Shown here: piece by piece, positions 2 through 17,938 of the stretch
Layout of the letters: each line of letters opens with the position of its first letter
How positions within the stretch are numbered: the stretch's first letter is position 1
Translations under genes and position numbers: made by a program
Notes under the pieces: generated by a model
What the model was told of the DNA's origin: nothing
Database searches by the model: none
What the model saw: only the letters and a program-made list of their open reading frames with translations
Origin: Candidatus Omnitrophota bacterium
GTDB taxonomy: Bacteria > Omnitrophota > Omnitrophia > Omnitrophales > Aquincolibacteriaceae
Direction: 5' to 3'
NCBI GenBank assembly: GCA_030698625.1
Contig: JAUYMS010000035.1
Span: forward strand, 135,950-199,949
DNA: 64,000 bases

Positions 2-3000
2 CTGAGGAACTTTTTCTCGCAGATCGCCGAGCAGATGGCGCTTCGATATGGAAATTACAACGAGATCGTAAGGCTCGCGCCAAATGAATTACCCACCCTT
101 GACGAATTTATCGCCAAGAGAGCAGGATTTACCAGCGTAAAAGCATTACGAGAATATCTGCTCGAACAAGCAGTCATGCTCGCCGACGGAGACAGTAATG
201 CGGCAGGCCAGACGCGCCAGCGTCTCTTACCGGCTTTCTACAACGGAGCGAGTTACACGGAAGATGACGGCTCCGAGATTCCGCGAGTCCCGTCCACGAT
301 GATCGTTTATCACCGCCTCAATGCCCTTTTTACCGACGTATTCAATGGGTTTACCGAGCGCCATTTAAATGAAATCTTCCCGGAATTTGATCCTGAAAAG
401 GGAAAACTCATGACGAACCGGGCGCGAAATTTAAAGGCGCTTCGCCGGCATGTCTTTAACGGCGATTACGAGGAAACAACTCGTATGTTAGTTGAAGAGG
501 TGCTTGAGGCGGACCAGGTCTTGCACGATACGGAAACGGAAATCTTTCTCATCGGGGAGCGCGATTTATTAGACGCCAAAGAAACCGACGCGTTGAGTTT
601 GCGAGACGCGGAAAATATCGCATTGCGGTCGTTTGAAGGAAGACGGGCTCAAGATTTTTCGATACGGGCGTATCTGGCCCACCCCCGTTTGGAAGGAAGA
701 CTCCGAGAAGAAGACTTCGTGTTGGAACCCGAAGCATTCATGACGCTGCTTACCTCACAGGGACTGACCCAAGGGAAGGCCGGCGAGGTGGGCTTCTTCA
801 GGGTATTTCGTAAGGAGGTAGACAAGTATCTGGAACTCGCGGAAGCGCGTGCCGGCCAAGTCCGTGATCAGACCCTCGGGGAAGTTGCGGTGAATCTCAA
901 TAGGATGATGACGGTGTCTGAGAATTTTTATTTTTTTGATGCGGCTGATTTAACTCAGCGCCGGATCGAACAAATCATGGAAGTCTCCGGCCTTATCAAT
1001 ATGGCCCAAGCCGAAATGGAAGTCGGCGAGATCAGCGAAGAGCACCGCGCGGTCAGGGAGAATCTCGACAACCTCATGACCCATGCCCGCCTGCGCTGGA
1101 GTGTTGCCGCGTCCGGCATCCCCGGTGTTCAGATAACGGTCGAGAGAACAAAGGACCCCAATCAGTTTAATATCAACGTGACCTCAGAAGAGCCGGAAGA
1201 CGATGCCTTCCTCATTAATGCGGAACTGCCGGTGCTGATACGGCCCGACCACCTGAATCGTTTGCATGCCTATGTTGTAGATGCAGAGATGACGAATCTG
1301 GAAGTTTTTCACGCCGCCCTCGACGACCGGGAACAGGAAGAATTGGAAAACGCAGTCATCGAAGTCTTGGGATCCATTCGGGAAATCTATGGTGAAGATC
1401 TGGTGTTCGTGATTCCCCGCGATCGTCAGGACTCGGATTTATTTTCGGGCCTGTTTGGCGGTATCTTGGGACTGGAGGGTACGAAGGACTGGAATGTGCT
1501 GGGGCAGGTCGAAGAGATTGCTCCCAAACAGGGCGGGCACTTCTATCTGTCCTTCTCGCTTGACGGAATTAGTCAGAGTCGATTGCACTTTCTCGACCAT
1601 GCGGTAGTGCGCCAATTGAGACGATCGTATTCGACTCAGAAATGGGTCCCCGGCCAGCATAAAGGATTAGTGGTCAGCACGCTCGGCGGCGCGAAGAATA
1701 AGCAGGCCTTTGTTTACATCAATCTCTACGAGTACTGGACACGCTGGCGTCCGAAATGGGAAAAGCTCAGTCCGCGCATAGCGGCTTATGAGCCCTCAGC
1801 CGACATGGAGCGCGTTTACGAATATCTTACAAAAAATCTCGACGGACTGATCCGCGACGACGTCAGAGGCATGGCGCCGATGGAATCACTACAGGCAATC
1901 GTTTATGCCATGGATGATGAAGATCCGAGTCAAGCGCTTACCGACGAACAGATAAAGATCATCGCCCTGCTGCGGGCTGCCGGGAGCTTATCCAGGGAGG
2001 GATTGTCGGAGCAAAAACTCCGGGGGATCATGCGGACCATGCTGGATCGCTATGTCAAGCTCAAGAAAATTTCTGACAAGGCCGAGGTCGCACTCCCTGA
2101 AGAACTCGTCGCCTCAATTCAACGGTTTATGGACAAGGCCCTCGCGCAATTTCTGGAAAGTGAAGCCTTTGGTGATGACATGATTCCGGAGGTTCTTAAG
2201 TTGAGCCGCGAACTGGCGGAACCGCTTGATGCCGCTTACGCGACCCTGACAGAAAAGCGCGGGCATGCTTTTGCCCGGGCGATGCGGACAGGGCGGGACG
2301 AAGCCGATGCCGACCGCGACGCGAAAACACCCCCGTTCTTTACAAGGCAGGGCAAGCTCCTGTTTTTTGTTCAGCCGGGGAAAGGCAAAAGATCTCCGGC
2401 CACTCTTCATATTGATCCCGATTGCCCCCAGTGTTCTCTCTCATCGGCGCAGGTGACCAAAGCGAGTGAGGTCGAAAGCCAGCACGACCGATATCGGTTA
2501 TGTAGCACGTGCAGTAAGACCCGCTTTGCGAAGGTCTATTGGGCGAGCGAGGAGCAGAGTTTTTACGATAAGTACGGAGGCCCCACCGGAGACCATGTCT
2601 GGCCAGGGGAAGGCGGAGACCGTTCCGAGCTTCGAGTGATCCCCAAGGATGCGGTTGTCTGGGGTATGTTTGCCGCCGACGGCCCGGTAATTTTTGTGCC
2701 CGGGCGGGGTCGCGGCGGTAAGGTTCCGGCAGCCGTTCAGCACGCCCTTGATTTGCTTGATGACTCCGGCCTCTTCACGGGCATGCTGCCGACCGTTTCC
2801 GCCAGAGCGACCTTCACGCTGGATGGCACCGAACTGTTCCGGTCCGAGCTGAGGGATGATAGGGAGTTGACTCCGGACGAGCTTGAGAACATTACCCCGC
2901 AATACCAAGGCGAAGGCGCCCTGCGTACCTTTATGGAGAACTATCCCGAGTGGCAAGCCGAGAATCCGGATTCGAAATTATTCTTCACGGTCCGTCATGG

Positions 3001-6000
3001 CGAGTCGGCCTCGAACCTGCTTGAATTTACGCAATCCTACGATGTTGCCACACCGCTCACCGCACGCGGTGAAAAGCAAAGAGACGCCATGGCGGATTTC
3101 TTCCAATTCTTTTTTGAGCAAATCGGGTTTGAGTTTGACGACTTCAGCGCCAGTAATTTGGAGCGTGCCTATGAAACTGTGCAGCCTCTCGCGGAGCGGC
3201 AGGGCCGGCTGGCGCATCTCATCAGGCGTTTTCGTGAAGTCCTTGTTTACCCGGTCGGCGGCGCGCCGTGGCATCTCTCGGAAAAAATCTGGGCGGGGGC
3301 GTGGGACCGCTTTATGGACGACCCTGAAAATTTCATCGTGCCTTCACCGGAACCGGGAGCGGAGCCGCTGTATTCAGGGAAAAAACTCAAGCAGTATCTA
3401 AGGCCCTATGTGGATGAAGTAGCCGAGAGCGGGCCTCAGAAATCCATGCTGAGCACGCACGGCATGACCGCAGTGCTCACGCTCATGGAGATCTTTAACA
3501 TCCCGTGGACTAAGTACTCAAACGTTTTCCAGAAGCTTGTCACGACTCCGAATCTTTCCGTGACGGCCTATGCTTACAATACGAAGACGAAGGAATGGCA
3601 GCTGCTAGTCCTCTTTGACGACTCCTATTTGCCGCAGGCAGTCCGGGGCAAAACTACGAATTGGTTCTCTAAGCAGTACGAACGCATCCGTTACTACCGC
3701 ATGATGCTCAAGCGGCTAAAGGAAAGGAGGGGCGGCAAGACCGAGGAAAAGATTACGCAGTCGCAGCATCCCATCTCAGATTACTTTCCGAGGAGCCTCC
3801 GTTGGCTCTTTCTCGGGCCCTCCGCGAGAGAGATTCGCGAGATGAAAGCCCGATATGCGGGAGAGCAGTCTCAGCGCTCGGAGCTTCGTGCGGTACAGCC
3901 GGTGTATCGAAAGGCACGAGAGGTCGCCGAGCGTATCAAGCGGCAGGTTCCCTCAGGCGGCATGGTGTCTGTCGACGGAGCGTCAGGGGCCGGGAAGACA
4001 ACGTTTATCGAGAAACTCGTAGCGGAATTGGAAGCGGCAGGCAGGCATGTCGTCGTCATTGGGTTGGATTTCTTTATGAAACCCGAACAGTGGCGATCTG
4101 ATTTTGATTTCGAGATTTTTGAACAGGAAGGCCCGTATTTGGAAGAGTGGCGGAATTTTGATGAAGACCATACGCGTGAAAAACTGCAGGAAATTCGCAC
4201 CTTCCTGGGTTCGGTAAGACCCGCCCATCACTTGGAAATACCACAGGCCTGGGATCGCAGTCCCGAGATTCGGGATTATGTGAATAAGAGCTTCGACCTC
4301 ACCGAGGACACGATTGTCATTGTCGACGGGAAGTACGCACAGCGATTCCCGGAATTCTACGACCGCAGTTTCCGAATCGAGAACGATATGCGTGTCGTAC
4401 GAAGCCAGTTTGAAAACCGAAAAAGGCCCGCGGAATTGCAGGAGCAAAAAATGAAGCTCTACGACAAGGCCACCGTGCCGAGTTGGGAACATTACGCCGA
4501 ACAAACTCAGGACCGTATTAGCGGAATCATCGATGTAACGCAGCCCCACATACGCCTCTGGCGAACGGCCCAAAAAATATTCCCGTCTTTAGATTTCTCT
4601 GGCCCGAAACTACAACCGCAGCCGAAGAAACCCATAGGTCCCACAAAGGCACCGGTTCGCGATTCAGAATTACGCGGCAAGCTCGGCACTTTTACGGAGC
4701 GTCTTGACGCACGAAAGACCACTGTGGAAATAGAAATTCTCTCTTCGCGATTCAAAAATGTAAAATCAAAGCGGTTTGATAATCCGGAAGGAGAGGCGAA
4801 ATACGTAGCGCGAGTGGAAACCGTCGATAACATGATCGCCGAAGGTTCTGCGGATGCCGGGATCGTCCGCGATCCACCGGAGCTCAGTCCGCAGGTAGCT
4901 TACAGGCTCAAGAAGATGCGGCCTTATATCAGAACACAGAAACCAAAGAATCCGTTCACAGATCATCTCTTTCCGTTCCTGGCGAAGTGGTTGTGGAACG
5001 GCCCTTATTCCCCGGTTCATTGGTTGCGGCACCGTAAGCCGTTTCGTTGGCTGAGCGATGTGATTCAAGAGGTGGATCAATACCAGGATCTGCGCGAACT
5101 CTCGTCGGTGTCTTCGGTGCTCATTGGGACCGTGGCCAATCAAATGCGGTCGCGTGCCGAACGCCGTTATCGCATCCTTCACGCGGTTCATACTCAGGGC
5201 GCCGAGATGCTGTTTGTTGTGAGCGGGGGGCATCCCGTACGCAAGATTATTCGCAGCTTGTTCTGGAGATTCCCGTGGTTTGAGAACCGGGTGAAGAACA
5301 ATGTCTTGGATACGCTGCGATTGATCAAAGAAATGAAAGACGCGGGTGAAATCCCGGCCCATATACGCGTTTCCATCGCTTGGGATCTCTATAAGGAGCC
5401 CGATCTGAGAAGGCTCGAGGCCAAGCTGGCGCTGGCGAAGGAAATCAACGGTGAAGCGCGCACAACGGTTTATCTGCAGGCACCTTATTTGCGAAAAACC
5501 GTGGTGCAAAAGCTCGACGCGGCCGCACGGGCAGGCTTGATGGACATTGCTGATTTTAAGGTTCATCTGCCGATCATCACTTCGCCGGGAGGTTTGCGCA
5601 TGACTTACCGCTTTATCGGGGTGGATCCCGATAAGGATCCGGAGGCGAGACTGCAATTGGACAAGTGGGAAAGGATGGAGAATGTCGGCGGCGAGGCCTA
5701 TGAACAGTTCAAGTTGGAATGGAATGCCCAATACGTCGACTGGTTGAAGGGGCTGATCTTCATTACAGGTTTTCGCTTCATGACCTTTACTGAGGAGGCT
5801 GAGAGATTGCTTCCAAAGGTGATGCAGGCAGCCGGGCTTGACCCCGAAGACCGCCTTAAAGAAGACAAGAAGGCAAAGATCCGCAATGAGGTGATGCGGC
5901 CGTTCCTTGTTCGTATGGCTAAGGTCGGCGTCAAGGGTGTGAGTTACCCGGGTGTTTTTGAAGCGGATAGCGTCAACGCGGAGATTCGCCCCTTGTTGGA

Positions 6001-9000
6001 AGTCACGGCGACGGCCTTTGAGGAGCTCGCCGAAGAAGCGAAAGATAACGAGAAACTGCGAGAGTTTCTCGATAACGCGCGCGTGCTGCCGTATCGATTG
6101 CGCTTGCCGGACATTTTTAAGCACTACCGGATTCCCATTGCCTATCGCGATTCCGACGTTGAGTGGCATGAATTTGCGCTCGATCTCAGGCCTTTTAGTG
6201 AAAAGGAGGTCACTGTCGAAGCCGCACAAGTCTATAAGCAGGAACTTAAGGATTCGATCATGACCTTTCTTGCCGCGGGCCGGCAGGATCCCGACGGTGT
6301 CGATCTCGATCTCGATTTCGGTTTGCATGAAAACACCGCGATTTTCAAAATTAGTGACCGTGCGTATAAGAGTAAAGGCGATAAACCCAAAGCTCGTATC
6401 GATGTGGAAGATGCGTTTGTGAAATACAATGCCGAGAACCTGATTCAAAGGGTCAAAGCCATTGCTATTGATAACCCCGTTTACGTTGAGATGTCCATCG
6501 CGGGTATTGACCGGGCCCGGAAACTTATCGAAGAGATTTACGCCCAGGCAAGCGACGGGGAAAAGGCGATCTTTGCGAAGCAGCCGCTGACCTATGTCTT
6601 TACCGACTTCTCGGAACCGGTCCTGCAGCAGGCCGAGCGGGATATGCAAAGGTTGTTGGCCGGCGATGCCGAATTTGCGCGGAAGGTAGGGGAATTAAAG
6701 ATCCATTTCGAGTATTTGCCCTTGCTTGCCGAAAGTGCCGATACCGTCCTTGCGACGTATAAGAACCGGGTGGTCACGGCGCATGCGACGAATCTCTATG
6801 ACGCCATCCGGGCCAATTTCCTGGCCCAGTATCTGGGAATTCCGTATCACGTCCTGACGCAGGCCTATATCCCGAAAGCTGCGGCCGAAGCCTTGGTGGC
6901 TAAGTATGCCGAGTATGGATTGACCGCTGCAGAGTTGGCGGGCATCGCCACCGGCGGGGTCGACGCATTTTTAGATAAATACGAGGATGAAGCCGTCATG
7001 ACGAATGAACAATTCTCCGGATTTCTCGAAGACCTTGCGAACTCCATCCAGGAACGGCACCGCTATAAGAGGTGGACGGATATTGACGGTTATGACTGGT
7101 TGAATATTCCGGGCGTCGACAATCCGAACCTTATTCTCTTTGACCGCCTTACCGGGAATCCGCGCAATAAATGGATGATGGACTCGAAGTACGCATTGCA
7201 AAGCATCGTAAAACTGATGGGAATTCTCCATCCCGACGGAGTTATGGAGCTGACACAGTTCAGCACCACCGTAGAGCGGATTCATCATACTTATGAAGTT
7301 TTCCGGAAGGTCAAGCACGGCGCGACCGTGATTATGCCTTTTCAAATTGATCTCCTGGAAGACATTGCGGCACGCCTCGGATTTACACTCGTGCGCCGGC
7401 CCTTCACCGATTTCGGCGGCAGGTCGGCTTCTGTCGAATTCATCGAAATGGTCCGGTTTGCCGCGACACGCTCGGAACTGCGCAGTGACGCGGTCAATGA
7501 GCTCGCAGCTCGCTTCAGTTTTCTCAGCGTTTCGGATCTCGAGGCGCTCGAAGCCGGCCAAGGGGATTTTCGGTATGCGGTCGAGCAGGGTTGGGACCTC
7601 GAAAGGCTTGGGCGGTATCTTTACGGCTTAAATGACTCCGGCGGTTTCTCCGGCATAAAAACAGCACGGCTTATTTCTGATCCGGAGCAAAGCTATCATT
7701 TTCTAATCGACCGCGAAGCCGGAACTTATACCGTGAACCTAGCTTCGCCAAAGGCCTCTGCCGAAGCACTCGTCGGTGCCGCCCGCTATATTGGCACCCA
7801 CGAATCTATGCATGAGGAGATCGAGGAGGATGAGTCACAATACCTTCATTTCCTGCGTAGTGCATTGGAGGGAAGGTCTGGCCAGCCGGTGAAGCGAGTC
7901 ATGACGCGGATGGAAGCCGACGACGTCCTTGCCGGAATACGAACGGCAGGCGGGCTCACACCCCTGTATGACCTCGATCTCCGGGAGAAGCTCTACAAGG
8001 AGGGAGAAGAAGTCATTGCCGATACCCTTACTCTGAATAAGCTGGGGAGCGACTTCCTCGAAGGCTACTATCGCCTTGCCCGGGAGCACCTGGACTATTA
8101 CTGGAAAAACCGCGGTGACATTGATAACACTTACTATTTTGTCTACCGCGCCGTGGTTGCCAAGGGGTACAGCAACGCGCTTCCTGAAGATCACCCATTG
8201 AAGGCGCCTCTCGCGGAGATGGCCGCGAAGTGGCAACAGTTGGCCGGATTACTGGCCTACAGTTTTGAATGGCCGATTCTTTCCCAGGTGCTTGTCGACC
8301 CGTTCGAAAATCTGTTCACTCAATTCTATAATCCGGACCGGTCCGAGCTGCGAAGTCATGAAGAATTGGTCCCGGAAAGTCTTCGAATCGCTTACGAGCA
8401 GCTGTTCAGAGCCGTCGATGCCGAGTTTCCGGAAGTCGGAAAACCCCTACCCTATTACGGGCAGTTTTATCCGACACCCTACGAAACCCTACCGGTGATA
8501 ACGGCTTATATCCGTGAATTGCTTGGCGATCGCGCTGACCGCCCGAATAGCTTCAACATCTTCGACTTCGGCGGCGGGGACCTGCGTATGGCTTACCATC
8601 TGGCGCTTATTGGCAACGGAGTCAGTGTCGGGTCCATTGAGCTCAATCCGTTTGTGGCCGCGGTCGGCCGGGCTATCCGCCACGGAGTGGATGAACAAAC
8701 GGATTTTGACCTTTTGACCGGCTACCAGACACTCCAGCTGAGTCAGGATGCGGAACTCGCAGCGGCGTTCCCCGGAAAGACGGATGAAGAGCTTCATCGA
8801 GGAATCAGGAGACTTCTGCCTCACCTGCAGCGGGTCTATGGCGAGCTTAGCATGCTGGGAATCCTCGAAAACGTCTCGCCCGTTGAGGGCAACGGTTTTC
8901 TATCCACGGCGGTTTCATTTAAGAGGTTTGACGCAATCTATATTAATCTCCTCGATGTATCTGTGACACAAGCGGGGCGCAGCTATCGCGAAGCCCTATT

Positions 9001-12000
9001 GGCGAAGGTGCGGGAGGAATTGTTGCCCGGCGCCTATCTTTTTATCCGTACTTTTAATGTTTTAGAGCAGACGCGAAGGCCTCATCAGGAAATGATGCGT
9101 ATGCTCGAAGAAGATCTCGGCCTTGAGCGCATCTCCAGGGGGCAGGAGATCGAGAATTATCTGATCGCGTTTCGGGTCCCTGTCAATGCACAGCGCTCAG
9201 AGCTGCGATCTATGAGTCTGCGCGATGTTTTTGGCCGTCTCGAACCGCTACGCCGTGAAGGCCGCACCGCTGCCCTCAGGATCGTAGACGTTGAAGGGCG
9301 GACATCGACCGTTGTCGGGGTACCGGACCAATGGGGTTTTATTGCGGAACAGCGGTTCAGTGTCCGGTTTACCGATAGTGGTGTGCACCATACCGTGAAG
9401 CTCAAGGACCCCGCATCGGATTGGAGGGACGGCGAGCATGAAGTCATTCAGATAATGTCCGTCGCTCGGATGACGACGGATGCGCGGTCTGAACTTCGCA
9501 GTCCACAGGTGCCGACGCCGTGGGGAAAGCCGCTTATCCTGGAAGGGGGACTGGCTTCGATGTACCCCGAAAACGCCAAGGCATTGTTCAATGAGCCGAC
9601 TATTCAGAATCTGCTGGGCATGCTGGGTAAAGTCGCTCCCGGCGAGGTGCCCGAGAGGATTCTCTTTGAGAGGGTGCCGGACAGGCAGCTTCATAAAGTG
9701 GACTTCATCATGCAGGACGGAGAACTGGTGTTTCATTTGCCGATGAGTATCGTTTCCGAAGACGCCGCGGAGACGCTGCCCGTTGTCGAAGCCGCCCTGG
9801 CATTCTTTATTGTGGATGAAGAGATTCAGCGTCGCGATCCGAGAGGGGCGGAGGTCACCGATATTCTCATGAACGACGAAGCGCGTGAATTCCAGATAGA
9901 CGATGGCAATAAGATCAATCTGCGTCCCGTCCTTCGCGAGATGCGTGCGATCGTGCGGATGCAGAGACTGAAAGAAGCCGGAGCGTACCGGGCGCTGGCG
10001 GCAACAGTCCATATGGCCCCGCCCAAAGCCACCGAACTCATGGGATACGACGAACACGGGCAAATGACGGGGGAAGTCATTCACGAAAGCCGAATGTTGA
10101 TTGCGGCCGTCAATGCCCTACTCGTGATTTCTGTGATTGAAGACAAAGCCGATTATGAGCAGATAGCTGCCTATTTTGAGTTCAACGTGGATGATCCTGA
10201 ACTGTTTGAGTATGCGCGCGACATCGTTACGGGCAATGACAGGATCCGCAATCTCGTACTCTCCGGAAACATGCCGACCCTCAAAGAGGTTGAGACGGTC
10301 TATTTGCCTGAAATTATCAAAGAACTGAACGCCGGGTATCTGAGGGACGAAGAACTCGCCGCGGCACAGGCGCTTCGCAACCATTACCCGGATGAGAAGT
10401 CACAGGCGGATCGTATCGAATCGCCGGCACTCATGATCGATATTCTCAAGTATCACGGTCTTGAGCGCGAGGAGAGCTTGAAGCTCCTCAGGCGCATGAG
10501 ACGCCTGAAGCCAAGCCCCGAGGCCGGCAGACAGATGGCTAAAAGAGGCGAGCGTGCCGAAGCCGAAGGTCAGCCTATCACGGCATGGGTTTCTTACCGT
10601 ATTGCGGCACTTCAAGGGGATAAGGAATCTCTGCGGGCGGCCGAAGCCGTTCGGGAAAAATGGACTTTTCAAGGGACGGTCACAGAGGCGTTATCGGAAT
10701 CCGATCACGAGGCATTCTTTCACATTCAATTTCAGGCGGGAAATACGGCGGTCAATCTTGCCTTCGATATCGACGGAACGCCCGTTGTGGTCAATGGCTA
10801 TAAGATGCCGCATCTGTTCTATGATTTAGACGGTTTGGAACTGAATGCGGGTGCGGAAATTTCGGGATATTCTCGCGGACAGCTTGTTGAGACCTTACGC
10901 GTATCGCCGGAAGGGGTAGTGCGCATCGGCGATCAGTGGGAGTCGCGCGTTGCAGGGCTTCCCTTATCAGGCCGAGAACACTTGATCGCGACAAAGGCTT
11001 ATCTTGAAGCTTTCGAGCAGGGCATATCCGGTGCAACTCTCGGCGAGTATATCCGGTTTCTGAAATCGGGGGAGCCGCCACTTTCGAAAGAAGCGGGCGA
11101 AGCGCGCGATACGTTGACGGCTTTCCTCAGCAGCCAGCATGGAATACCGCTTTACGCAGGCGGGGAGGATGCTATCAATCCGCGATTCATTCGCATCATC
11201 GAAGAGGCCGCAGAGTCCCTTAAGCGTGAAAAGGTTTATACGGTGGCTTCGACCCCCTGGGGCAAACCCCTTATCATTGACGGCCCTCTCGCCACTCCCG
11301 ATCCGAAGCTGACTACATATCTTCTTGGTGCGATGAGTCCGGTTTTATATCTCCTCAAGGAACTTCATGAAGAATTGGGACTTCCCATGGAACGAATCAC
11401 CTTCGAGCCTATAAGCGAAGACGGCCAAGAACCGGATGAGGTGACGATGCCGATATTCGGCCTCAGGAACGGCCGTTATGTCTTTAACATTCCCATGCCT
11501 CTGTATGTGGAGAATCCCAATCATGAAGAATTGCTCGATTTTCTCATTATGGGGGTAGCCCGCGACCTTGCCGAACGGCGGGCCGAACAACTGTTTGAGG
11601 CGATTAATACGAATGAGCAGGCTGAAGCCAAACCCTTTGCCGAAGCCTTGCAGACGCGCCTGGCGGTGCGTGCCATTGCCGAAAGGGGATCCCTCGAACA
11701 AGCGGCAACGTTTGCGCGGTCTTCTATAATTCACCTTTTCGTCCAGACCCCCGTAGCGGAGTCCAGCTTTATCGATACCATAACGTCGTTGAATACGGTC
11801 TCAGAGCGTGAATCTCCGCGAGATCTCTTTATCAAAGCGGTCCATGTCCTCGTCGGACTGGACCCCATCGCCGGAACGGATATGGGCCGTCATGTCTTGG
11901 AAGCGCTCGAACAAACCGTTAAGGCAGACGGCATTGTCGATGCCGCGCGGGAATTCGTCGCAAGTAATGAAAGCCTGCGGGAACTGCTGGCCGCGGATTT

Positions 12001-15000
12001 ACCGTCTGACGTGGCAGATCTGGAAGAAAAATATATTCGGCCCGTAGCGCAAGCGGCGGAGGCTTTTTCGAACGAAAGTACAAAGTCGCCCATTCTTCAG
12101 TATGTGCGAAGTGAACCGGTCAGTTATGCCCTGCCTGTGCCGGGCCGTATTTGGCTGCGATCCCCAGACGGTTTGATAGAAGTCATGCTTGTCCTCTCCG
12201 AACAAAGCGCCGAAGAATTGTCGGCCGCCGGTCATCTGATTTCAAACCTCATGTATGAGATTTATTTAGGCGGCCCTGATTATTCTGAAGAGCCGGACAA
12301 TCGTCTTGGTATCAAATTGGAGCCGCCTGGGGTGGTCAGCGGAGCGGGATTTCAGAAACCGGACACGGCCCTCATGCAAGCTCTGCGCCCGTTTCTCATG
12401 AATCTGTCGCTGCGTAAAGTCCCCATTTTCGTCGCCGCCCTTGAAAAAACCTTTAGAGGACGCATTTCTAACGCCATTTCTGATGCCGTGAGCAAAGAAG
12501 CGGCGCAGACCGCCGCCGAGCCCGCCGCTTCCAAAGAACGGCTGCCCATTGAAGACGAGCTTAGTCAGATCGCGCCCGGTCTGGCGGAGAAGATCTTTCG
12601 GGATCCCCGCATGAGTAAGTTGATCGACGCCTTACATCGTGCCGGTTATCCGGTAGAGCGGCTCGTCTTGGAGCGTGAAGTGGACGCTTCAGCGGGCCTC
12701 GATGCAGCCCTTCAGCAGGGTGAGCTAGCGATCGCGATACCGGGAATCACTCTAGCTCAGTCCTCGGACGAAAAAGTGGTTCGGGAGGCCGTTGTCGCAG
12801 TCGCAAGCCACGCGGCTCGAACCGTTATGATGCGCGGAGACTCAGCAACCGTTCAGGCGTTGGACCGCTTCCATACGAGTTTTTGGTTTGGCGAGAAGGA
12901 ACAGCTGAATGCTTCCGAGGTGCTCCGCTATTTCTTTGCGGCGCAGGTTGCCAAGCTTCTCATCGAAGCCGGGGATACGGATTCAGCGGAAAGGCATATC
13001 AAGAAGTTCATTCATTCCAAGATGCTCCGCACGCGATTAAAGATGCTCAACCTCACGAAGCCTGCCGCAGAGGAGTATCTGCGTCTCGTGACGGCTATGA
13101 ACTTTTATCTTTTGAGTGTCCCTTTCGAAGGGACGGGTAAAGAGGATTCTCTGCGCGAGGAATGGGCCAAGGATTTTGGGGATGAGCTGTGGAGCCGCGT
13201 TTCCCGCATTGCTCGTGACAATGCAAAACTTGCTGCGGTCATGCGTACGGATCATACGCCGTCGATGACGCTTATCAAACGGGATTACCTGACACAACTT
13301 TATCGCGAGGTCCGCGACGGGAAGGGCAGGTCCGAATTGCGTTCTCTTTCTATTCAGGATACGCCATGGGGACAGCCGCTCGTGCTGGAAGGCGAGACCG
13401 CGTCCCGGTATGCGGATGACGTAAAGGCTGCCTTTGGGCAGACGGGAGTTCTTGCCCTGCTTCACAAACTCGGCCGGAAGACGCCCGATCAAAGGATCAA
13501 GCGCATCGTTTTTGAGGACCTGGCCGCAGATGAATCTGAGAAGAGTGGCCTGCGATTCGAAAACGGAGAATGGTCTTTCTTTATTCCGCAGTCATTCGTC
13601 GGTCATTATGATGATGAGACACTGCAGTCTCTCGTTTTGCAGGACGCCGCACTTGCCCTCGTGAAGTTTGATATCCGCCGGCAGGATGAAGAGTTCTCAG
13701 AGATTCTTCAAGGGAATGTGACTCGGGAGATACAAATTGCCGACGGAGTCTCCATTGACGCCGCCCATATTGCCTTGGCCATCCGCGATATCCACTGGAT
13801 CAGGGAGTTAATCGGTGTCGGGGCATCTGAAAGACAAATTATGGAGCGTGTGTCCACCGCTTTGAGGCGCCTCATGCGTGTATTACAACCCGGCCGTACG
13901 TCTAATGCGCAGGCGTTCTTATTTGCGGTGACATCTTTGGTGCTGTTATCGGTTATAAGGGAACTGGATGCCGATCTATACGATCGCACGACCGGAGCCG
14001 CGCTTGCCGGTATACGACAGAGCCAAGAAGTGGATTGGATACTCGATGTCGTAGAAACCAATGAGGCGATCAGCCGGTCCTTTGTGACTAAACGGATACC
14101 GGCCTTTGCCGAGATCGAACACGACTTCGTCGGCGTGATTATGGGGGAATTCGAGAAAGGCACGCTCTCAGAAAATGAAACTACAGCGGCGGAATCTCTC
14201 CGTGAGTTGTATCGGGATGCCGAAACATTAGAGGGCGTCCGAATTACAGTGAAGGAATATCTTAAAAAATACGGAACTGTTCGTGATGAGGATGATTCGG
14301 GCAACATTGCGGTTCGTCTCAACACGTATCCCATCCGGCAGGCTGCAGGCGGAAGCGCCCGATTGACCAGAGACGCGCTCAGAGCGATTCCGCTAGCGGT
14401 TCATGTCTTACAGTATTACCGCGTTCATGTCGACAGGATCGATCAGATTTTTGCGCGCGCAAGTCGAAGAAATGCGCCTCCGCCACTCGCAGAACTCTTC
14501 GAAGAACCTGAAGAAAACCCGAAGGAACCCGAGAATGCCCTCAATGCCTGGTTGTCTCATCAGATAGCGTATCTCAGAGGTGACCGAAGGGCGCTCCTAG
14601 CCGCCGCGGATGCCCAAAAGGTTTTCGAAATACAATTGGAAGCCGCAGGATTTGACGGACGCGAGATTGATGGCCGGCGGGTACGGACACAGATACTTTT
14701 GAATGTGGATTACGCAGACGCCATTGCTGCGCTTGATGTTCACGGGGTTGTCCCACCGTTGCTGGATACTGAAGGCGAGGCTGTTTTCCATATCGCCGTC
14801 TATCACGGAGAGGCCAATGCGTTGTTGTCCTTTGACCGCAACGGCAAACCCCTTGCCGTCAACGGACATGCCGTGCCGTATCTCTATTATGGTTTGGATG
14901 AATTAAGGTTGGTGTTGGATGAAGGTATTGTGGTCCACGGCTTGGTTGAAGATGAAGTCGCCGAGGAAGTCGCTATACTACCCACCGAAGTCGTGAGTCG

Positions 15001-17938
15001 AGTGGATGATTGGGATGAGCGCATTGCTGCGCTTAAACTCAGCGAACATGAAAAAACGGCTCGGCGTGAGATGTTCTTTGAGGCCGCTGAGTTTGGTGTG
15101 AGCGCGACAGCCGTGGCTAAATGGATTCAACAGCTTAGGGATTGGGCCAAGCAGGGGAATCCGTGGGAACAGGTTGTGGACGCGGACATCGAGCGCGCCC
15201 GCTCCGTCTTGATGCCGATGATGGTAGACAAGTTTCAGATTCCTCAATTTGCTAACGGGCGGATCAATCCCCGTTTGCTCAGGGTGCTCGAGGAAGTTCA
15301 TGCGCAGATGTTTACGATCCGCAGCCTAACTATTGATGAAACGGTCTGGGGAGAGCCGATCGAGGTTGACGGGACATACGGTACGGCTGATCCCAAACTC
15401 TCACGATTTCTTTTCGGGAAAGAAAGCCCGCTTCACTACCTCTTAAATATCATGCGTGAGGAGTTGGGTGAGTCCGTCGATCGGGTGACTCTTGATCGCT
15501 TGCCGGATGATGCCTCTGACGACGCCTCCTTCGAAATGCGAAACGGCCGCGCCTTCTTCGGGTTGAGTTACAGGGCATTTAGCGTGGACCTGATGCCGAA
15601 GGAAGTCATGCTGATCCATATGGTGTTTGATATGGCCCGCCATATCGTAGGTGAGCGGTCGGCGAGCCATTCCGCGCTGGCGCAAGCCCTGGGTGAAAAA
15701 GGCGACTACCATAACTTCGATGCAGAAAACCGGCTGTCCATGCGCGATGCCCTGAGTGCCCTCCGAGCCAGGCTGGCTGTGGAACTGGCGCTTGAGGCAG
15801 GATCTTTTGAAACGGCATCTCACGTGGTGCAATCGGCGATTCGCCAAACTTTTCGCGAGAGCCGCTCCATTCGGATTCAAGCAAGCAGTCTAGTAGACGC
15901 CATCGTTCAGTTCATGGGCCGGCAGGCCGGCCAAGCGGAAGGCTCCGCTCTGGAGCACCTATTCAAGATCGTTAATGCGCTGAGTCTCTTAGAACCCTTT
16001 GGAGAGGATGAGCGCGCTCAGGAGCTCTATGACATGCTTCGTGAGCAGGCGGCAAACGACGAGCTCTATGAGTTTGCCAGGGACCTTTTAGGCGAGAACG
16101 AGACGCTTCGCGATGCGGTTCAAGGAGGTTTACCTTACGGCCTTGAAGAGTTACAGCGGGAATATCTTCAACCCATTTTTGATGCGGCTAAAAAAGCGGG
16201 GTATGTGGAACAAGAACAACCCGGCGATCATTATAGTCAGCCGCTGGATTATGCAGGCAGCAAGCCGGTCAGCGATGACAATCCCGCACCGGCTTCCATC
16301 CATTTTCGTGCCCGCGAAGACGGGCAGGAACTAGAGCTGTTGCTGACGGAGCAAACGCCGGAGACATTGGTCTACAGTATCCATGCCGGCGAGGTTAAGG
16401 CTGAGGAACCGGCCGCAATCGTGAGGCTCGCGCTGGGTGAAGACGGAGTCATCGAAGGTTTTATGTTTCCAAAAGACGCCGGCGGATTAGTGAATGCGCT
16501 GTTTCCGTGGCTCAAGCGATTGCAGGCCATCGATATACCTTTCACGGCCGGGAATCTGGATGCGATACACCCGGAAATTCCGGCGCCGGAGGAATCACGG
16601 CCGCCTTCCGAGAAGGCGCCCGTCATCGACGGCGACCTGGCGGATACCGACACAGCATTGACCGCACGTATTTTCGCACGACCGGCTGCGGTTGCGATGC
16701 TCGATGAATTGTATCACCTGGGCTATACCACAAAGAAGATCACTTTTCAGAGCATTGAGGGCGCGGAAGCGGACCTGTCCTTTAGCCAAGACCCGGACGG
16801 GCTTGTGTTCTCAGTTCCGGAAAATGTTTTCGTGCAAATAGGTGCCGAAGACTTGGTGCGCCATGCCGTTGTCGCACTTGCCTACTTTTTGGCGGATGCA
16901 AAGATTTTGCACGATGACCGCAGAATTCTACGCGATATCCTTGGGAGGGCTGAACCCTTTTGGTTCGGCAATCAGGAGACCTTTGAGACTGTGCCGGCCA
17001 TGAAGGCCTTTTATGCAGCGCGTGTTCTGCGTAAGCTTGTGAGCCTGGGTGAAGTCGACGCGGCACTCCGACAGGCCCGCAAATTTGCGGAAGAGGAATT
17101 GGCAGCTAAGCTGATACTGGCCTCCAGCATGCCTACTCCCGAGTTCCTCGATCTGGAACAAGCCGTACACGCGGCCAATGTGTTGTTAATCGCAAGTGTC
17201 TTCGAAGGCCGGGACGAATACGAAGCCCTTGAAGAGGAATTCGTTTCATTGACGCGAGCAGGCGGCAGTTTTCAACAGGCCAAGAATCTCAAAGCGGAGA
17301 ATGAAACCGTACGGGCGATCATGGACGGTGAGGAAATGCCCGACCTCGATAGGGTCAAGCGCGACTACCTGAGGCACATTTATCGTACCGTTTCGCGCTC
17401 AGAGCTTCGCTTGTCTCAGGGTGATTTGCGGAAGATGGTCACGAGCCGGACCCGGGGAACGGTGATGGTGGAAGCCGAAGATCTCGCGGGCTTCTCGCAT
17501 GCCGAGCGCGAAGTGTTATTCAAAGCGCTCTATATGAATCGCAGTGAACTGCGCCTGGTTGTTTACAACCAAACACTTTCTACGGACAACGATCCGCTGC
17601 TTGCGGCTATTCTCGCCCTTGCCAATGTGGTGCAGGTCAAGGGTGATGCCGAGCGAGCGCTTCAACTGCACGGTATTCCGGGCGGTACCGTCACGCATCT
17701 CTCAAGAGCCGGTCGCGATCCGCGCGGAGAATTCAGCGGGAATGTCTTGAAGCGCGTTAAATTCTTCCGTTTGCAGGAACAACCCGAAGTGATTGCCGTG
17801 GCGCTCCTTTTTGCCAAGAATGAAGCGGGAATGCCCGGGGTGACTGAACGGGACGGCTTTATGCACACGCACACCGAGTTACTCGTCTTCATCGAGACCG
17901 AATACCTCAACGAACTCGTCATCGCCATTGCGGCATAA
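2..17938 (+). CDS. Giant multidomain protein with SELR-separated segments (5' partial)
   Basis: A single frame is open from position 2, so the ATG at 35 is probably internal and the protein starts before the window. Residue numbers here count that ATG as 1; 5,967 residues are visible. Eleven (R/D)SELR pentapeptides divide it into twelve segments: 1-862 (ends with a CxxC-x22-CxxC zinc-ribbon-like pair, Cys797/800/823/826), 868-935, 941-1280 (histidine phosphatase), 1286-1542 (P-loop kinase), 1548-2478 (unknown, with a possible methyltransferase-like C-terminal half), 2484-2768 (HESMH), 2774-3053 (SAM methyltransferase), 3059-3150, 3156-4431 and 4437-5787 (tandem paralogous modules), 5793-5835 and 5841-5967. 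No long hydrophobic segment stands out, so a cytoplasmic location is likely. The mix of unrelated enzyme folds in one chain fits no known single-function family. It may be a polyprotein or a scaffold; its function is unknown. Giant proteins are known in Omnitrophota. The frame is certain, the biology is inference. Confidence 0.9.
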   Translation: MRNFFSQIAEQMALRYGNYNEIVRLAPNELPTLDEFIAKRAGFTSVKALREYLLEQAVMLADGDSNAAGQTRQRLLPAFYNGASYTEDDGSEIPRVPSTMIVYHRLNALFTDVFNGFTERHLNEIFPEFDPEKGKLMTNRARNLKALRRHVFNGDYEETTRMLVEEVLEADQVLHDTETEIFLIGERDLLDAKETDALSLRDAENIALRSFEGRRAQDFSIRAYLAHPRLEGRLREEDFVLEPEAFMTLLTSQGLTQGKAGEVGFFRVFRKEVDKYLELAEARAGQVRDQTLGEVAVNLNRMMTVSENFYFFDAADLTQRRIEQIMEVSGLINMAQAEMEVGEISEEHRAVRENLDNLMTHARLRWSVAASGIPGVQITVERTKDPNQFNINVTSEEPEDDAFLINAELPVLIRPDHLNRLHAYVVDAEMTNLEVFHAALDDREQEELENAVIEVLGSIREIYGEDLVFVIPRDRQDSDLFSGLFGGILGLEGTKDWNVLGQVEEIAPKQGGHFYLSFSLDGISQSRLHFLDHAVVRQLRRSYSTQKWVPGQHKGLVVSTLGGAKNKQAFVYINLYEYWTRWRPKWEKLSPRIAAYEPSADMERVYEYLTKNLDGLIRDDVRGMAPMESLQAIVYAMDDEDPSQALTDEQIKIIALLRAAGSLSREGLSEQKLRGIMRTMLDRYVKLKKISDKAEVALPEELVASIQRFMDKALAQFLESEAFGDDMIPEVLKLSRELAEPLDAAYATLTEKRGHAFARAMRTGRDEADADRDAKTPPFFTRQGKLLFFVQPGKGKRSPATLHIDPDCPQCSLSSAQVTKASEVESQHDRYRLCSTCSKTRFAKVYWASEEQSFYDKYGGPTGDHVWPGEGGDRSELRVIPKDAVVWGMFAADGPVIFVPGRGRGGKVPAAVQHALDLLDDSGLFTGMLPTVSARATFTLDGTELFRSELRDDRELTPDELENITPQYQGEGALRTFMENYPEWQAENPDSKLFFTVRHGESASNLLEFTQSYDVATPLTARGEKQRDAMADFFQFFFEQIGFEFDDFSASNLERAYETVQPLAERQGRLAHLIRRFREVLVYPVGGAPWHLSEKIWAGAWDRFMDDPENFIVPSPEPGAEPLYSGKKLKQYLRPYVDEVAESGPQKSMLSTHGMTAVLTLMEIFNIPWTKYSNVFQKLVTTPNLSVTAYAYNTKTKEWQLLVLFDDSYLPQAVRGKTTNWFSKQYERIRYYRMMLKRLKERRGGKTEEKITQSQHPISDYFPRSLRWLFLGPSAREIREMKARYAGEQSQRSELRAVQPVYRKAREVAERIKRQVPSGGMVSVDGASGAGKTTFIEKLVAELEAAGRHVVVIGLDFFMKPEQWRSDFDFEIFEQEGPYLEEWRNFDEDHTREKLQEIRTFLGSVRPAHHLEIPQAWDRSPEIRDYVNKSFDLTEDTIVIVDGKYAQRFPEFYDRSFRIENDMRVVRSQFENRKRPAELQEQKMKLYDKATVPSWEHYAEQTQDRISGIIDVTQPHIRLWRTAQKIFPSLDFSGPKLQPQPKKPIGPTKAPVRDSELRGKLGTFTERLDARKTTVEIEILSSRFKNVKSKRFDNPEGEAKYVARVETVDNMIAEGSADAGIVRDPPELSPQVAYRLKKMRPYIRTQKPKNPFTDHLFPFLAKWLWNGPYSPVHWLRHRKPFRWLSDVIQEVDQYQDLRELSSVSSVLIGTVANQMRSRAERRYRILHAVHTQGAEMLFVVSGGHPVRKIIRSLFWRFPWFENRVKNNVLDTLRLIKEMKDAGEIPAHIRVSIAWDLYKEPDLRRLEAKLALAKEINGEARTTVYLQAPYLRKTVVQKLDAAARAGLMDIADFKVHLPIITSPGGLRMTYRFIGVDPDKDPEARLQLDKWERMENVGGEAYEQFKLEWNAQYVDWLKGLIFITGFRFMTFTEEAERLLPKVMQAAGLDPEDRLKEDKKAKIRNEVMRPFLVRMAKVGVKGVSYPGVFEADSVNAEIRPLLEVTATAFEELAEEAKDNEKLREFLDNARVLPYRLRLPDIFKHYRIPIAYRDSDVEWHEFALDLRPFSEKEVTVEAAQVYKQELKDSIMTFLAAGRQDPDGVDLDLDFGLHENTAIFKISDRAYKSKGDKPKARIDVEDAFVKYNAENLIQRVKAIAIDNPVYVEMSIAGIDRARKLIEEIYAQASDGEKAIFAKQPLTYVFTDFSEPVLQQAERDMQRLLAGDAEFARKVGELKIHFEYLPLLAESADTVLATYKNRVVTAHATNLYDAIRANFLAQYLGIPYHVLTQAYIPKAAAEALVAKYAEYGLTAAELAGIATGGVDAFLDKYEDEAVMTNEQFSGFLEDLANSIQERHRYKRWTDIDGYDWLNIPGVDNPNLILFDRLTGNPRNKWMMDSKYALQSIVKLMGILHPDGVMELTQFSTTVERIHHTYEVFRKVKHGATVIMPFQIDLLEDIAARLGFTLVRRPFTDFGGRSASVEFIEMVRFAATRSELRSDAVNELAARFSFLSVSDLEALEAGQGDFRYAVEQGWDLERLGRYLYGLNDSGGFSGIKTARLISDPEQSYHFLIDREAGTYTVNLASPKASAEALVGAARYIGTHESMHEEIEEDESQYLHFLRSALEGRSGQPVKRVMTRMEADDVLAGIRTAGGLTPLYDLDLREKLYKEGEEVIADTLTLNKLGSDFLEGYYRLAREHLDYYWKNRGDIDNTYYFVYRAVVAKGYSNALPEDHPLKAPLAEMAAKWQQLAGLLAYSFEWPILSQVLVDPFENLFTQFYNPDRSELRSHEELVPESLRIAYEQLFRAVDAEFPEVGKPLPYYGQFYPTPYETLPVITAYIRELLGDRADRPNSFNIFDFGGGDLRMAYHLALIGNGVSVGSIELNPFVAAVGRAIRHGVDEQTDFDLLTGYQTLQLSQDAELAAAFPGKTDEELHRGIRRLLPHLQRVYGELSMLGILENVSPVEGNGFLSTAVSFKRFDAIYINLLDVSVTQAGRSYREALLAKVREELLPGAYLFIRTFNVLEQTRRPHQEMMRMLEEDLGLERISRGQEIENYLIAFRVPVNAQRSELRSMSLRDVFGRLEPLRREGRTAALRIVDVEGRTSTVVGVPDQWGFIAEQRFSVRFTDSGVHHTVKLKDPASDWRDGEHEVIQIMSVARMTTDARSELRSPQVPTPWGKPLILEGGLASMYPENAKALFNEPTIQNLLGMLGKVAPGEVPERILFERVPDRQLHKVDFIMQDGELVFHLPMSIVSEDAAETLPVVEAALAFFIVDEEIQRRDPRGAEVTDILMNDEAREFQIDDGNKINLRPVLREMRAIVRMQRLKEAGAYRALAATVHMAPPKATELMGYDEHGQMTGEVIHESRMLIAAVNALLVISVIEDKADYEQIAAYFEFNVDDPELFEYARDIVTGNDRIRNLVLSGNMPTLKEVETVYLPEIIKELNAGYLRDEELAAAQALRNHYPDEKSQADRIESPALMIDILKYHGLEREESLKLLRRMRRLKPSPEAGRQMAKRGERAEAEGQPITAWVSYRIAALQGDKESLRAAEAVREKWTFQGTVTEALSESDHEAFFHIQFQAGNTAVNLAFDIDGTPVVVNGYKMPHLFYDLDGLELNAGAEISGYSRGQLVETLRVSPEGVVRIGDQWESRVAGLPLSGREHLIATKAYLEAFEQGISGATLGEYIRFLKSGEPPLSKEAGEARDTLTAFLSSQHGIPLYAGGEDAINPRFIRIIEEAAESLKREKVYTVASTPWGKPLIIDGPLATPDPKLTTYLLGAMSPVLYLLKELHEELGLPMERITFEPISEDGQEPDEVTMPIFGLRNGRYVFNIPMPLYVENPNHEELLDFLIMGVARDLAERRAEQLFEAINTNEQAEAKPFAEALQTRLAVRAIAERGSLEQAATFARSSIIHLFVQTPVAESSFIDTITSLNTVSERESPRDLFIKAVHVLVGLDPIAGTDMGRHVLEALEQTVKADGIVDAAREFVASNESLRELLAADLPSDVADLEEKYIRPVAQAAEAFSNESTKSPILQYVRSEPVSYALPVPGRIWLRSPDGLIEVMLVLSEQSAEELSAAGHLISNLMYEIYLGGPDYSEEPDNRLGIKLEPPGVVSGAGFQKPDTALMQALRPFLMNLSLRKVPIFVAALEKTFRGRISNAISDAVSKEAAQTAAEPAASKERLPIEDELSQIAPGLAEKIFRDPRMSKLIDALHRAGYPVERLVLEREVDASAGLDAALQQGELAIAIPGITLAQSSDEKVVREAVVAVASHAARTVMMRGDSATVQALDRFHTSFWFGEKEQLNASEVLRYFFAAQVAKLLIEAGDTDSAERHIKKFIHSKMLRTRLKMLNLTKPAAEEYLRLVTAMNFYLLSVPFEGTGKEDSLREEWAKDFGDELWSRVSRIARDNAKLAAVMRTDHTPSMTLIKRDYLTQLYREVRDGKGRSELRSLSIQDTPWGQPLVLEGETASRYADDVKAAFGQTGVLALLHKLGRKTPDQRIKRIVFEDLAADESEKSGLRFENGEWSFFIPQSFVGHYDDETLQSLVLQDAALALVKFDIRRQDEEFSEILQGNVTREIQIADGVSIDAAHIALAIRDIHWIRELIGVGASERQIMERVSTALRRLMRVLQPGRTSNAQAFLFAVTSLVLLSVIRELDADLYDRTTGAALAGIRQSQEVDWILDVVETNEAISRSFVTKRIPAFAEIEHDFVGVIMGEFEKGTLSENETTAAESLRELYRDAETLEGVRITVKEYLKKYGTVRDEDDSGNIAVRLNTYPIRQAAGGSARLTRDALRAIPLAVHVLQYYRVHVDRIDQIFARASRRNAPPPLAELFEEPEENPKEPENALNAWLSHQIAYLRGDRRALLAAADAQKVFEIQLEAAGFDGREIDGRRVRTQILLNVDYADAIAALDVHGVVPPLLDTEGEAVFHIAVYHGEANALLSFDRNGKPLAVNGHAVPYLYYGLDELRLVLDEGIVVHGLVEDEVAEEVAILPTEVVSRVDDWDERIAALKLSEHEKTARREMFFEAAEFGVSATAVAKWIQQLRDWAKQGNPWEQVVDADIERARSVLMPMMVDKFQIPQFANGRINPRLLRVLEEVHAQMFTIRSLTIDETVWGEPIEVDGTYGTADPKLSRFLFGKESPLHYLLNIMREELGESVDRVTLDRLPDDASDDASFEMRNGRAFFGLSYRAFSVDLMPKEVMLIHMVFDMARHIVGERSASHSALAQALGEKGDYHNFDAENRLSMRDALSALRARLAVELALEAGSFETASHVVQSAIRQTFRESRSIRIQASSLVDAIVQFMGRQAGQAEGSALEHLFKIVNALSLLEPFGEDERAQELYDMLREQAANDELYEFARDLLGENETLRDAVQGGLPYGLEELQREYLQPIFDAAKKAGYVEQEQPGDHYSQPLDYAGSKPVSDDNPAPASIHFRAREDGQELELLLTEQTPETLVYSIHAGEVKAEEPAAIVRLALGEDGVIEGFMFPKDAGGLVNALFPWLKRLQAIDIPFTAGNLDAIHPEIPAPEESRPPSEKAPVIDGDLADTDTALTARIFARPAAVAMLDELYHLGYTTKKITFQSIEGAEADLSFSQDPDGLVFSVPENVFVQIGAEDLVRHAVVALAYFLADAKILHDDRRILRDILGRAEPFWFGNQETFETVPAMKAFYAARVLRKLVSLGEVDAALRQARKFAEEELAAKLILASSMPTPEFLDLEQAVHAANVLLIASVFEGRDEYEALEEEFVSLTRAGGSFQQAKNLKAENETVRAIMDGEEMPDLDRVKRDYLRHIYRTVSRSELRLSQGDLRKMVTSRTRGTVMVEAEDLAGFSHAEREVLFKALYMNRSELRLVVYNQTLSTDNDPLLAAILALANVVQVKGDAERALQLHGIPGGTVTHLSRAGRDPRGEFSGNVLKRVKFFRLQEQPEVIAVALLFAKNEAGMPGVTERDGFMHTHTELLVFIETEYLNELVIAIAA
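2855..3874 (+). other. Histidine phosphatase segment of giant protein
   Basis: Residues 941-1280. The RHGES motif at residues 987-991 is the phosphohistidine RHG signature of the phosphoglycerate mutase-like superfamily, and a later 'STHGM' supplies the second conserved His. The segment resembles a free-standing phosphatase embedded between two SELR separators. Its substrate is unknown. Confidence 0.75.
3890..4660 (+). other. Uridine kinase-like P-loop segment of giant protein
   Basis: Residues 1286-1542. A Walker A motif GASGAGKTT lies at residues 1315-1323 (Lys1321), followed by 'VVIGLDFFM', which is typical of the phosphoribulokinase/uridine kinase fold. 'RDYVNKSFDLTEDTIVIVDG' resembles the region of these kinases that carries the substrate lid and Walker B strand. 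The substrate cannot be assigned. Confidence 0.7.
7484..8338 (+). other. HExxH metallopeptidase-like segment of giant protein
   Basis: Residues 2484-2768. HESMH at residues 2589-2593 matches the zincin HExxH motif. About 70 residues later 'GEEVIADTL' could supply a third Glu ligand, as in gluzincins with an ExxxD-type second motif. This is a motif-level call only. If it is active, it is an internal candidate for processing the polyprotein. Confidence 0.5.
8354..9193 (+). other. Class I SAM methyltransferase segment of giant protein
   Basis: Residues 2774-3053. FDFGGGDLR at residue 2843 onward is motif I (SAM-binding glycine loop), and 'GSIELNP' about 20 residues later is the acidic motif II. 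'DAIYINLLDVS' and 'LLPGAYLFIRTF' fit motifs IV to VI. The substrate is unknown. Confidence 0.7.
9515..13327 (+). repeat. Tandem module 1: three related ~270-residue units
   Basis: Residues 3161-4431 contain three related units beginning near 3161 ('TPWGKPLILEG'), 3740 ('TPWGKPLIIDG') and 4170 ('LPIEDELSQ'). Each unit ends in a pattern N-E/D-x-(I/L)-R-x7-P-x5-(V/L)-x3-Y-(L/I), for example near 3434, 4009 and 4428. Between units lie linker domains with 'VVNGYKMPHLFYDLD' and 'RFIRIIEE' motifs. The fold is unknown to me, and predicted helices are abundant. Confidence 0.75.
13361..17395 (+). repeat. Tandem module 2: paralogous copy of module 1
   Basis: Residues 4443-5787 repeat the order of module 1. 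Units start near 4443 ('TPWGQPLVLEG'), 5103 ('TVWGEPIEVDG') and 5528 ('APVIDGDLAD'). The linker repeats 'AVNGHAVPYLYYGLDEL' and 'RLLRVLEEV'. Corresponding units of the two modules are offset by 1,282, 1,363 and 1,358 residues, so one ancestral three-unit module of about 1.3 thousand residues was duplicated. The copies have diverged strongly, so the duplication is old. Confidence 0.75.

Follow-up and report, generated by a model that had tools for sequence, protein, structure and literature searches.

Can a five-residue peptide that recurs between unrelated segments of a bacterial protein be the processing site of a polyprotein? The question is raised by an open reading frame (ORF) in a 64,000-nucleotide stretch of a Candidatus Omnitrophota genome (contig JAUYMS010000035.1, positions 135,950 to 199,949; the window is this whole stretch). 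A preliminary description of the window reported a single frame at positions 2-17938 of the forward strand with eleven SELR peptides, and we recovered the frame and the peptides at the places implied: ten read RSELR and one DSELR. The frame is the C-terminal two thirds of a giant protein. Its full ORF (C50:126558-153884 in the genome) encodes 9,109 amino acids (aa) with 16 SELR, and its true start lies 9.4 kb upstream of the window; base 2 is an artefact of the window edge. Judging from the sequence evidence below, we consider it probable that this protein and its counterparts in the genome are exported polyproteins cut at RSELR by one protease acting in trans.

RSELR across the genome

The host genome (G000) is a 3.52-Mb draft of 50 contigs with 95% completeness. 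Giants and motifs were counted in its motif-rich stretches, so the counts are minima, and some of the ORFs are cut at contig ends or stretch edges. At least 38 giant ORFs comprise 237,073 aa and 305 RSELR and take up 20.2% of the genome. The set consists of the first 36 SELR-bearing ORFs, supplemented from two more contigs, less one ordinary gene (B02, a 786-aa ORF with one SELR that by eye resembles a glycogen-branching enzyme).

The first 36 ORFs (226 kaa, or thousand aa) contain 294 RSELR, compared with 0.63 expected from composition. Words that differ from it by one residue stay at background level in the same ORFs, and 99 kaa of ordinary ORFs contain no RSELR. A DNA-pattern scan of the whole genome (TCN serine, TTN fourth codon) returned 110 matches, against 7 for a reversed-pattern control. 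SELR preceded by a residue other than arginine was found five times across the giants where about 7.5 were expected. Because this is chance level, the DSELR of the window (4661-4675) is doubtful as a site, and of the eleven (R/D)SELR separators first proposed it is the ten RSELR that stand far above chance.

The 294 copies are encoded by 215 distinct 15-mers. This agrees with the earlier remark that synonymous codons vary, and the scatter rules out recent DNA insertion as the source of the peptide. The serine departs from this pattern: its codon is TCN in 285 of 294 copies (97%), compared with 55-67% elsewhere, and therefore most copies share an old common origin in one or a few ancestors. The RSELR copies are old relatives kept by selection on the peptide. 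One could instead regard them as leftovers of gene growth by insertion or duplication at peptide-coding DNA, comparable to the target-site duplications of DDxP proteins and functionless in the protein. The serine codon fits such a descent, AGY making up a third to nearly half of serine codons elsewhere, and modules do duplicate and travel with RSELR at their edges. We nevertheless find this explanation improbable, because the other synonymous positions are near background, yet the five residues never drift. Old scars without function would decay, single-residue variants occur at chance, and orthologous joins between families retain R, E and R.

Module joins and shared ends of the giants

Cutting the giants at SELR yields 327 segments, 224 of which have no relative among the other segments of the genome. 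A Pfam scan of this cargo covered nine of the 38 giants. It identified enolase, NagB-like, PIG-L, transaldolase, PfkB, HAD, UDP-glucose dehydrogenase and RmlD-like reductase domains, together with PP2C, histidine phosphatases, Fic, response regulator, HD, helicase, methyltransferase, alpha/beta hydrolase, HEAT and TPR domains. Of 37 Pfam domains not one is interrupted by RSELR, where random placement cuts 8.6 on average and none of 20,000 random placements was as low. Modules that are tandemly duplicated or common to several giants, a pair in the window included, start and stop at RSELR. For instance, the RmlD-like enzyme domain begins 2 residues past one RSELR and its 299-aa module closes at the next, and the UDP-glucose dehydrogenase domain, which keeps GSCFPKD, begins 4 residues past another. 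Hydrophobic and aromatic residues fall off within five residues of the motif. The layout is that of a polyprotein, with unrelated complete domains in each chain and sites at their joins, apart from some intradomain exceptions.

The preliminary description had called SELR a separator under selection at the protein level. The uncut Pfam domains and the module duplications and swaps that end at the motif strongly support this view, as do orthologous joins in relatives, which keep R[SA]ExR while the flanking linkers differ. The search for the motif at joins that it proposed thus found it both across the genome and in related genomes. Of the observations that it had named as damaging, loss of the motif at the same joins in homologues is not what the orthologous joins compared within the order showed in most cases. 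SELR inside folded domains is partly borne out: at least four RSELR lie within homologous domains (the N-terminal domain of B11 and the C-terminal domains of B22, B10 and B35), against none of the 37 Pfam domains.

Some modules are unusual in themselves. In the genome ORF C13:38330-69241 (L022/L023) the enolase module (aa 4497-5013) has its domain order swapped, with the C-domain before the N-domain. It sits after a membrane region with HERGH and contains no cysteine, and the motifs for the metal and for the catalytic lysine persist in its C-domain. The same genome also has a canonical enolase at another place. In B06 (L011, contig C7), UDP-glucose dehydrogenase (aa 5264-6026) is followed in the same module by a partial second copy that has lost the catalytic cysteine. 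The idea that the giants are a graveyard of pseudo-enzymes was rejected, the enolase, NagB, PIG-L and UDP-glucose dehydrogenase modules retaining their catalytic motifs by eye.

The giants also share their ends. An N-terminal region of ~660 aa is common to 28 of the first 36 ORFs (those without it are mostly 5'-truncated, with a few short ORFs), and in most giants it closes at the first RSELR. It opens with a signal-like hydrophobic stretch, followed by HIQDAHxxxxAQ...EG...GGFH. The HxxxxH, EG, GGFH and Arg invariants recall the ChaN/Tiki/EreA superfamily, to which a distant kinship is suggested. The best match to the ChaN/Tiki family PF04187 scores 25.5 bits, below the curated cut-off of 27.7; such matches, every one below the cut-off, occur in 15 of 29 genomes, and a weak one in 8 of 38 members of the domain. 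For a confident AlphaFold (AF2) model (pLDDT 86), Foldseek matches in the PDB include the erythromycin esterase EreC, weakly (E 1.1, prob 0.13), and searches with the domain against PDB profiles and NCBIfam gave no match. It differs from the superfamily in a large all-helical insertion, in usually following a signal-like segment and in its frequent fusion to giants.

The same domain is present in 54 of 58 independent relative genomes, often heading giants or long open frames, and at 405 loci of a second collection, where 80 of the 80 listed are Omnitrophota. This bears on whether the giants are artefacts of assembly, frame or annotation, as might be suspected from a draft in 50 contigs and from runs of N at one contig end and in the giant of a relative. 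With 38 giants over many contigs and this recurrence in other genomes, the suspicion is already refuted for practical purposes.

Cysteine makes up 0.02% of the giants, compared with 1.22% of soluble ordinary ORFs. Two giants of 10,304 and 13,048 aa have none at all, and a 23,964-aa frame of a relative (G005:C88:18416-90307, L099-L102) has none after residue 80. The residual cysteines are often closely paired, for instance in CPQC/CSTC just ahead of the first RSELR of the window, and hydropathy peaks in the first 80 aa mark signal-like segments at the N-termini. By hydropathy and cysteine counts the giants thus combine the two marks of exported proteins, a signal sequence and the depletion or pairing of cysteine, which argues for an extracytoplasmic location; we infer that they are exported.

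At the other end, 32 of 34 complete giants finish in alanine, compared with 21 of 227 ordinary ORFs (Fisher 1e-24), and 21 giants but none of the 227 ordinary ORFs finish in AA. The tail has the form -(A/S/M/Y)A. The two complete giants without a terminal alanine (B13 and B31; L029 and L056/L057) carry WCYP at or near the end, possibly as a frame or assembly effect. Peptidase_S41 (PF03572; Tsp/Prc/CtpA) gave no match in this genome, while 10 of 14 control genomes were matched, and the alanine tail is therefore not an ordinary Tsp handle. A tmRNA search returned only sub-threshold matches.

Cleavage or docking at RSELR

Across the order the motif is R[S/A]ExR, with an x that hardly varies inside one genome but shifts from genome to genome, as far as the sequences compared indicate. 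Several genera and further families of the order show an excess of RSELR, and others of RAEVR; the genome G001 has RSEVR in 12 of 12 sites, and 22 R[SA]ExR occur in one giant from another family. One join in B12 is RSELR here and RSEVR in the genome of another family. A family of C-terminal domains occurs in 15 of 58 genomes, and most of its copies have the motif ahead of them, about 290-380 residues before the end (RSELR, RSEMR, RSEVR, RAEIR, RSESR, RAELR or RAEMR); all of its closed copies end in A. Giants outside the order (L121-L200) have more cysteine and, instead of -AA, lineage-specific tails (KSL/RSL/TSL, WSV).

The residues that follow RSELR are far from random. Position +1 is A, S or T in 183 cases (60%) where 63 were expected, K or R in 4 (37 expected) and P in 2 (13 expected); position +2 is D or E in 101 (45 expected), and the depletion of K and R extends several residues further. 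These preferences look like protease subsites. In the reading that we favour, each intact giant comprises a Sec-type signal, the ~660-aa domain, a string of modules that are unrelated and for the most part enzymes, and the -(A/S/M/Y)A end. RSELR, in short hydrophilic stretches that mostly coincide with module joins, would be recognised by one trans-acting factor. We infer that in all likelihood this factor is a protease and that it cuts RSELR behind its second arginine, which would free the modules outside the cytoplasm; the freed enzymes might act on or inside another cell. A protease is the simplest recogniser because the site is short and exposed, its residues are strict, the flank preferences are one-sided and complete enzymes would be freed. 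The N-terminal domain itself is perhaps a weak candidate for this protease, through its distant superfamily resemblance. C11, C14 and S41 peptidases were considered and rejected, being absent or of mismatched distribution. Two caspase-like C14 proteins are encoded in this genome, at C41:6058 and C34:18075.

The shared, apparently exported N-terminal domain, the near-absence of cysteine and the protease-like flanks have strengthened the earlier proposal of a polyprotein processing site. Several observations weigh against it. Candidate Arg-specific proteases fail to track the motif: C11 is absent from all 58 genomes searched, and C14 occurs in only three of them, this one included. Besides the intradomain copies described above, a separator is missing in some segments that combine several enzymes (NagB with PIG-L) or join a membrane region to enolase, and long stretches lack RSELR, one segment reaching 5,964 aa. 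Much of the cargo consists of enzymes that depend on cytosolic cofactors, an oddity for exported proteins. In addition, giants headed by this N-terminal domain persist in Omnitrophota beyond the order but lack the motif there, and the 23,964-aa giant of G005, a member of the same family, carries few R[SA]ExR. Semi-tryptic peptides at RSELR, proposed earlier as evidence, would mislead, because trypsin cuts after both of its arginines.

The main rival holds that RSELR is not cut but serves for docking or recognition: the giants, whole and outside the cell, would form a multi-enzyme coat, adhesin or scaffold in which one partner clamps every RSELR. A strict, exposed, genome-specific short motif fits this equally well, and so do the copies in loops within domains; a role as cell-surface coat or adhesion proteins has been proposed for Omnitrophota giants (PMC10066038). 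We hold docking to be unlikely, if far from negligible, because the asymmetric flanks (a small residue, then an acid one, with K/R and P avoided) resemble protease subsites and not a two-sided epitope, and because the cargo of the nine giants scanned consists of complete enzymes of stand-alone size and includes no adhesin domain of a known kind. RSELR could also act through modification or at the level of translation, as a modified serine or a ribosome release/restart peptide. A signal of that kind would be strict and short as well, and the sequence data are compatible with it; ribosome skipping, by leaving modules without export signals, would be at odds with the lack of cysteine in all downstream modules. 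Neither ribosome skipping nor modification is known to us to use a motif like this one, and we give the option about as little credence as the functionless leftovers, or slightly less.

To return to cleavage, a wider picture can be drawn only tentatively, and we do not rate it as the likelier outcome. The order may devote up to a fifth of its coding capacity to cysteine-purged exported polyproteins, from which one dedicated protease, cutting R[S/A]ExR, would set free dozens of effectors and of cytosolic enzymes turned to new uses, either outside the cell or inside a prey or host cell, with protease and site co-evolving between genomes. If processing were confirmed, it would constitute a genome-wide bacterial polyprotein strategy, for which viruses and a few toxins are the only precedents known to us, and would account for some of the giant Omnitrophota ORFs that lack an explanation. 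It would also predict a sequence-specific protease of genome-tuned specificity, findable by its match to the R[S/A]ExR variants. Even if RSELR is uncut, 38 chains of unrelated modules that share a strict five-residue punctuation and have lost nearly all cysteine across 237,000 residues form a strong pattern, which makes the function of the giants directly testable. As far as we found, this combination is undescribed in the open-licence literature searched.

Modules of the window and comparison with known systems

All features of the window giant (2-17938) lie on the forward strand. The first two RSELR sites (2621-2635 and 2840-2854) precede a 345-aa histidine phosphatase module (branch 1; 2855-3889; PF00300, E 7e-16) that closes with site 3 (3875-3889) and is homologous, from residues 3/4 after the site onward, to a module of the giant B22. 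The P-loop module (3890-4675) has only weak Pfam matches (MeaB 3e-5, AAA_22 2e-4), starting 6 residues past RSELR; the doubtful DSELR falls at its end. A 936-aa segment without Pfam match (4676-7483) leads to site 4 (7469-7483). Next come a 290-aa module with an HExxH-like HESMHEE (7484-8353), ending in site 5 (8339-8353), and a 285-aa module with a methyltransferase-like glycine motif, NIFDFGGGDLR (8354-9208), ending in site 6 (9194-9208). Of the unrelated folds named in the preliminary description, the histidine phosphatase is therefore solid and the P-loop weak, while the methyltransferase and HExxH segments are recognised by eye only, without Pfam match.

After site 7 (9485-9499) stand two tandem modules of 1,281 aa (9500-13342) and 1,356 aa (13343-17410), joined at site 8 (13328-13342). 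They align over 1,398 columns at 26%, with edges 6/7 residues after RSELR and 0/0 before it. Site 9 (17396-17410) closes the pair. Site 10 (17540-17554) lies within a C-terminal domain shared with B10, which has other sequence there, and the last segment (127 aa, 17555-17935) ends in the alanine tail ...VIAIAA-COOH. Single-sequence structure prediction over the join 2843-4675 was uninformative (pLDDT 39.5). Apart from the N-terminal domain, the window modules have no relatives among the 80 named Omnitrophota loci. Genes checked downstream, in 17964-64000, look ordinary (PAP2, ArsC-like, Na/H exchanger, GGDEF-PAS, COX1/COX2, desaturase, amine oxidase and MetH).

Giant ORFs have been described in Omnitrophota, such as a 39,678-aa protein of Velamenicoccus, and in the passages searched they are characterised as poorly conserved, with few domains and possible roles in adhesion or predation (PMC10066038). 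Ours are likewise giant, predicted to be extracellular and of the same phylum; those passages mention no shared N-terminal domain, RSELR punctuation, cysteine loss, alanine tail or processing. DDxP proteins (PMC7730722) resemble the giants in being large, modular and bacterial and in the single short peptide that terminates their modules. Their modules, however, belong to 1-5 repeated types that carry Ca-binding motifs, and the peptide has been interpreted as an insertion scar (PMC7730722); the giants differ in the motif, RSELR, and in their many segments without relatives.

MARTX (multifunctional autoprocessing RTX) toxins come closer, as large secreted chains with several effector domains between conserved ends and proteolytic release at the junctions, and some RTX-secreted proteins also lack cysteine. 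Their cysteine protease domain (CPD) cuts after leucines, for instance at L3428-A3429 in the Vibrio cholerae protein (PMC3034196). Instead of single leucines, each chain of the giants has five-residue sites, strict and identical, that number up to 18, and they form about 38 different chains per genome, with a Sec-type N-terminus and in the phylum Omnitrophota; RTX nonapeptide repeats and the CPD had no Pfam match in the nine giants scanned. Viral polyproteins similarly string together functional proteins that are unrelated, with short sites recurring where these meet, whereas the giants are bacterial, apparently exported and encoded at many loci, and their cleavage is predicted. By analogy, and on the features tested, the giants would work most like MARTX toxins and viral polyproteins while belonging to neither.
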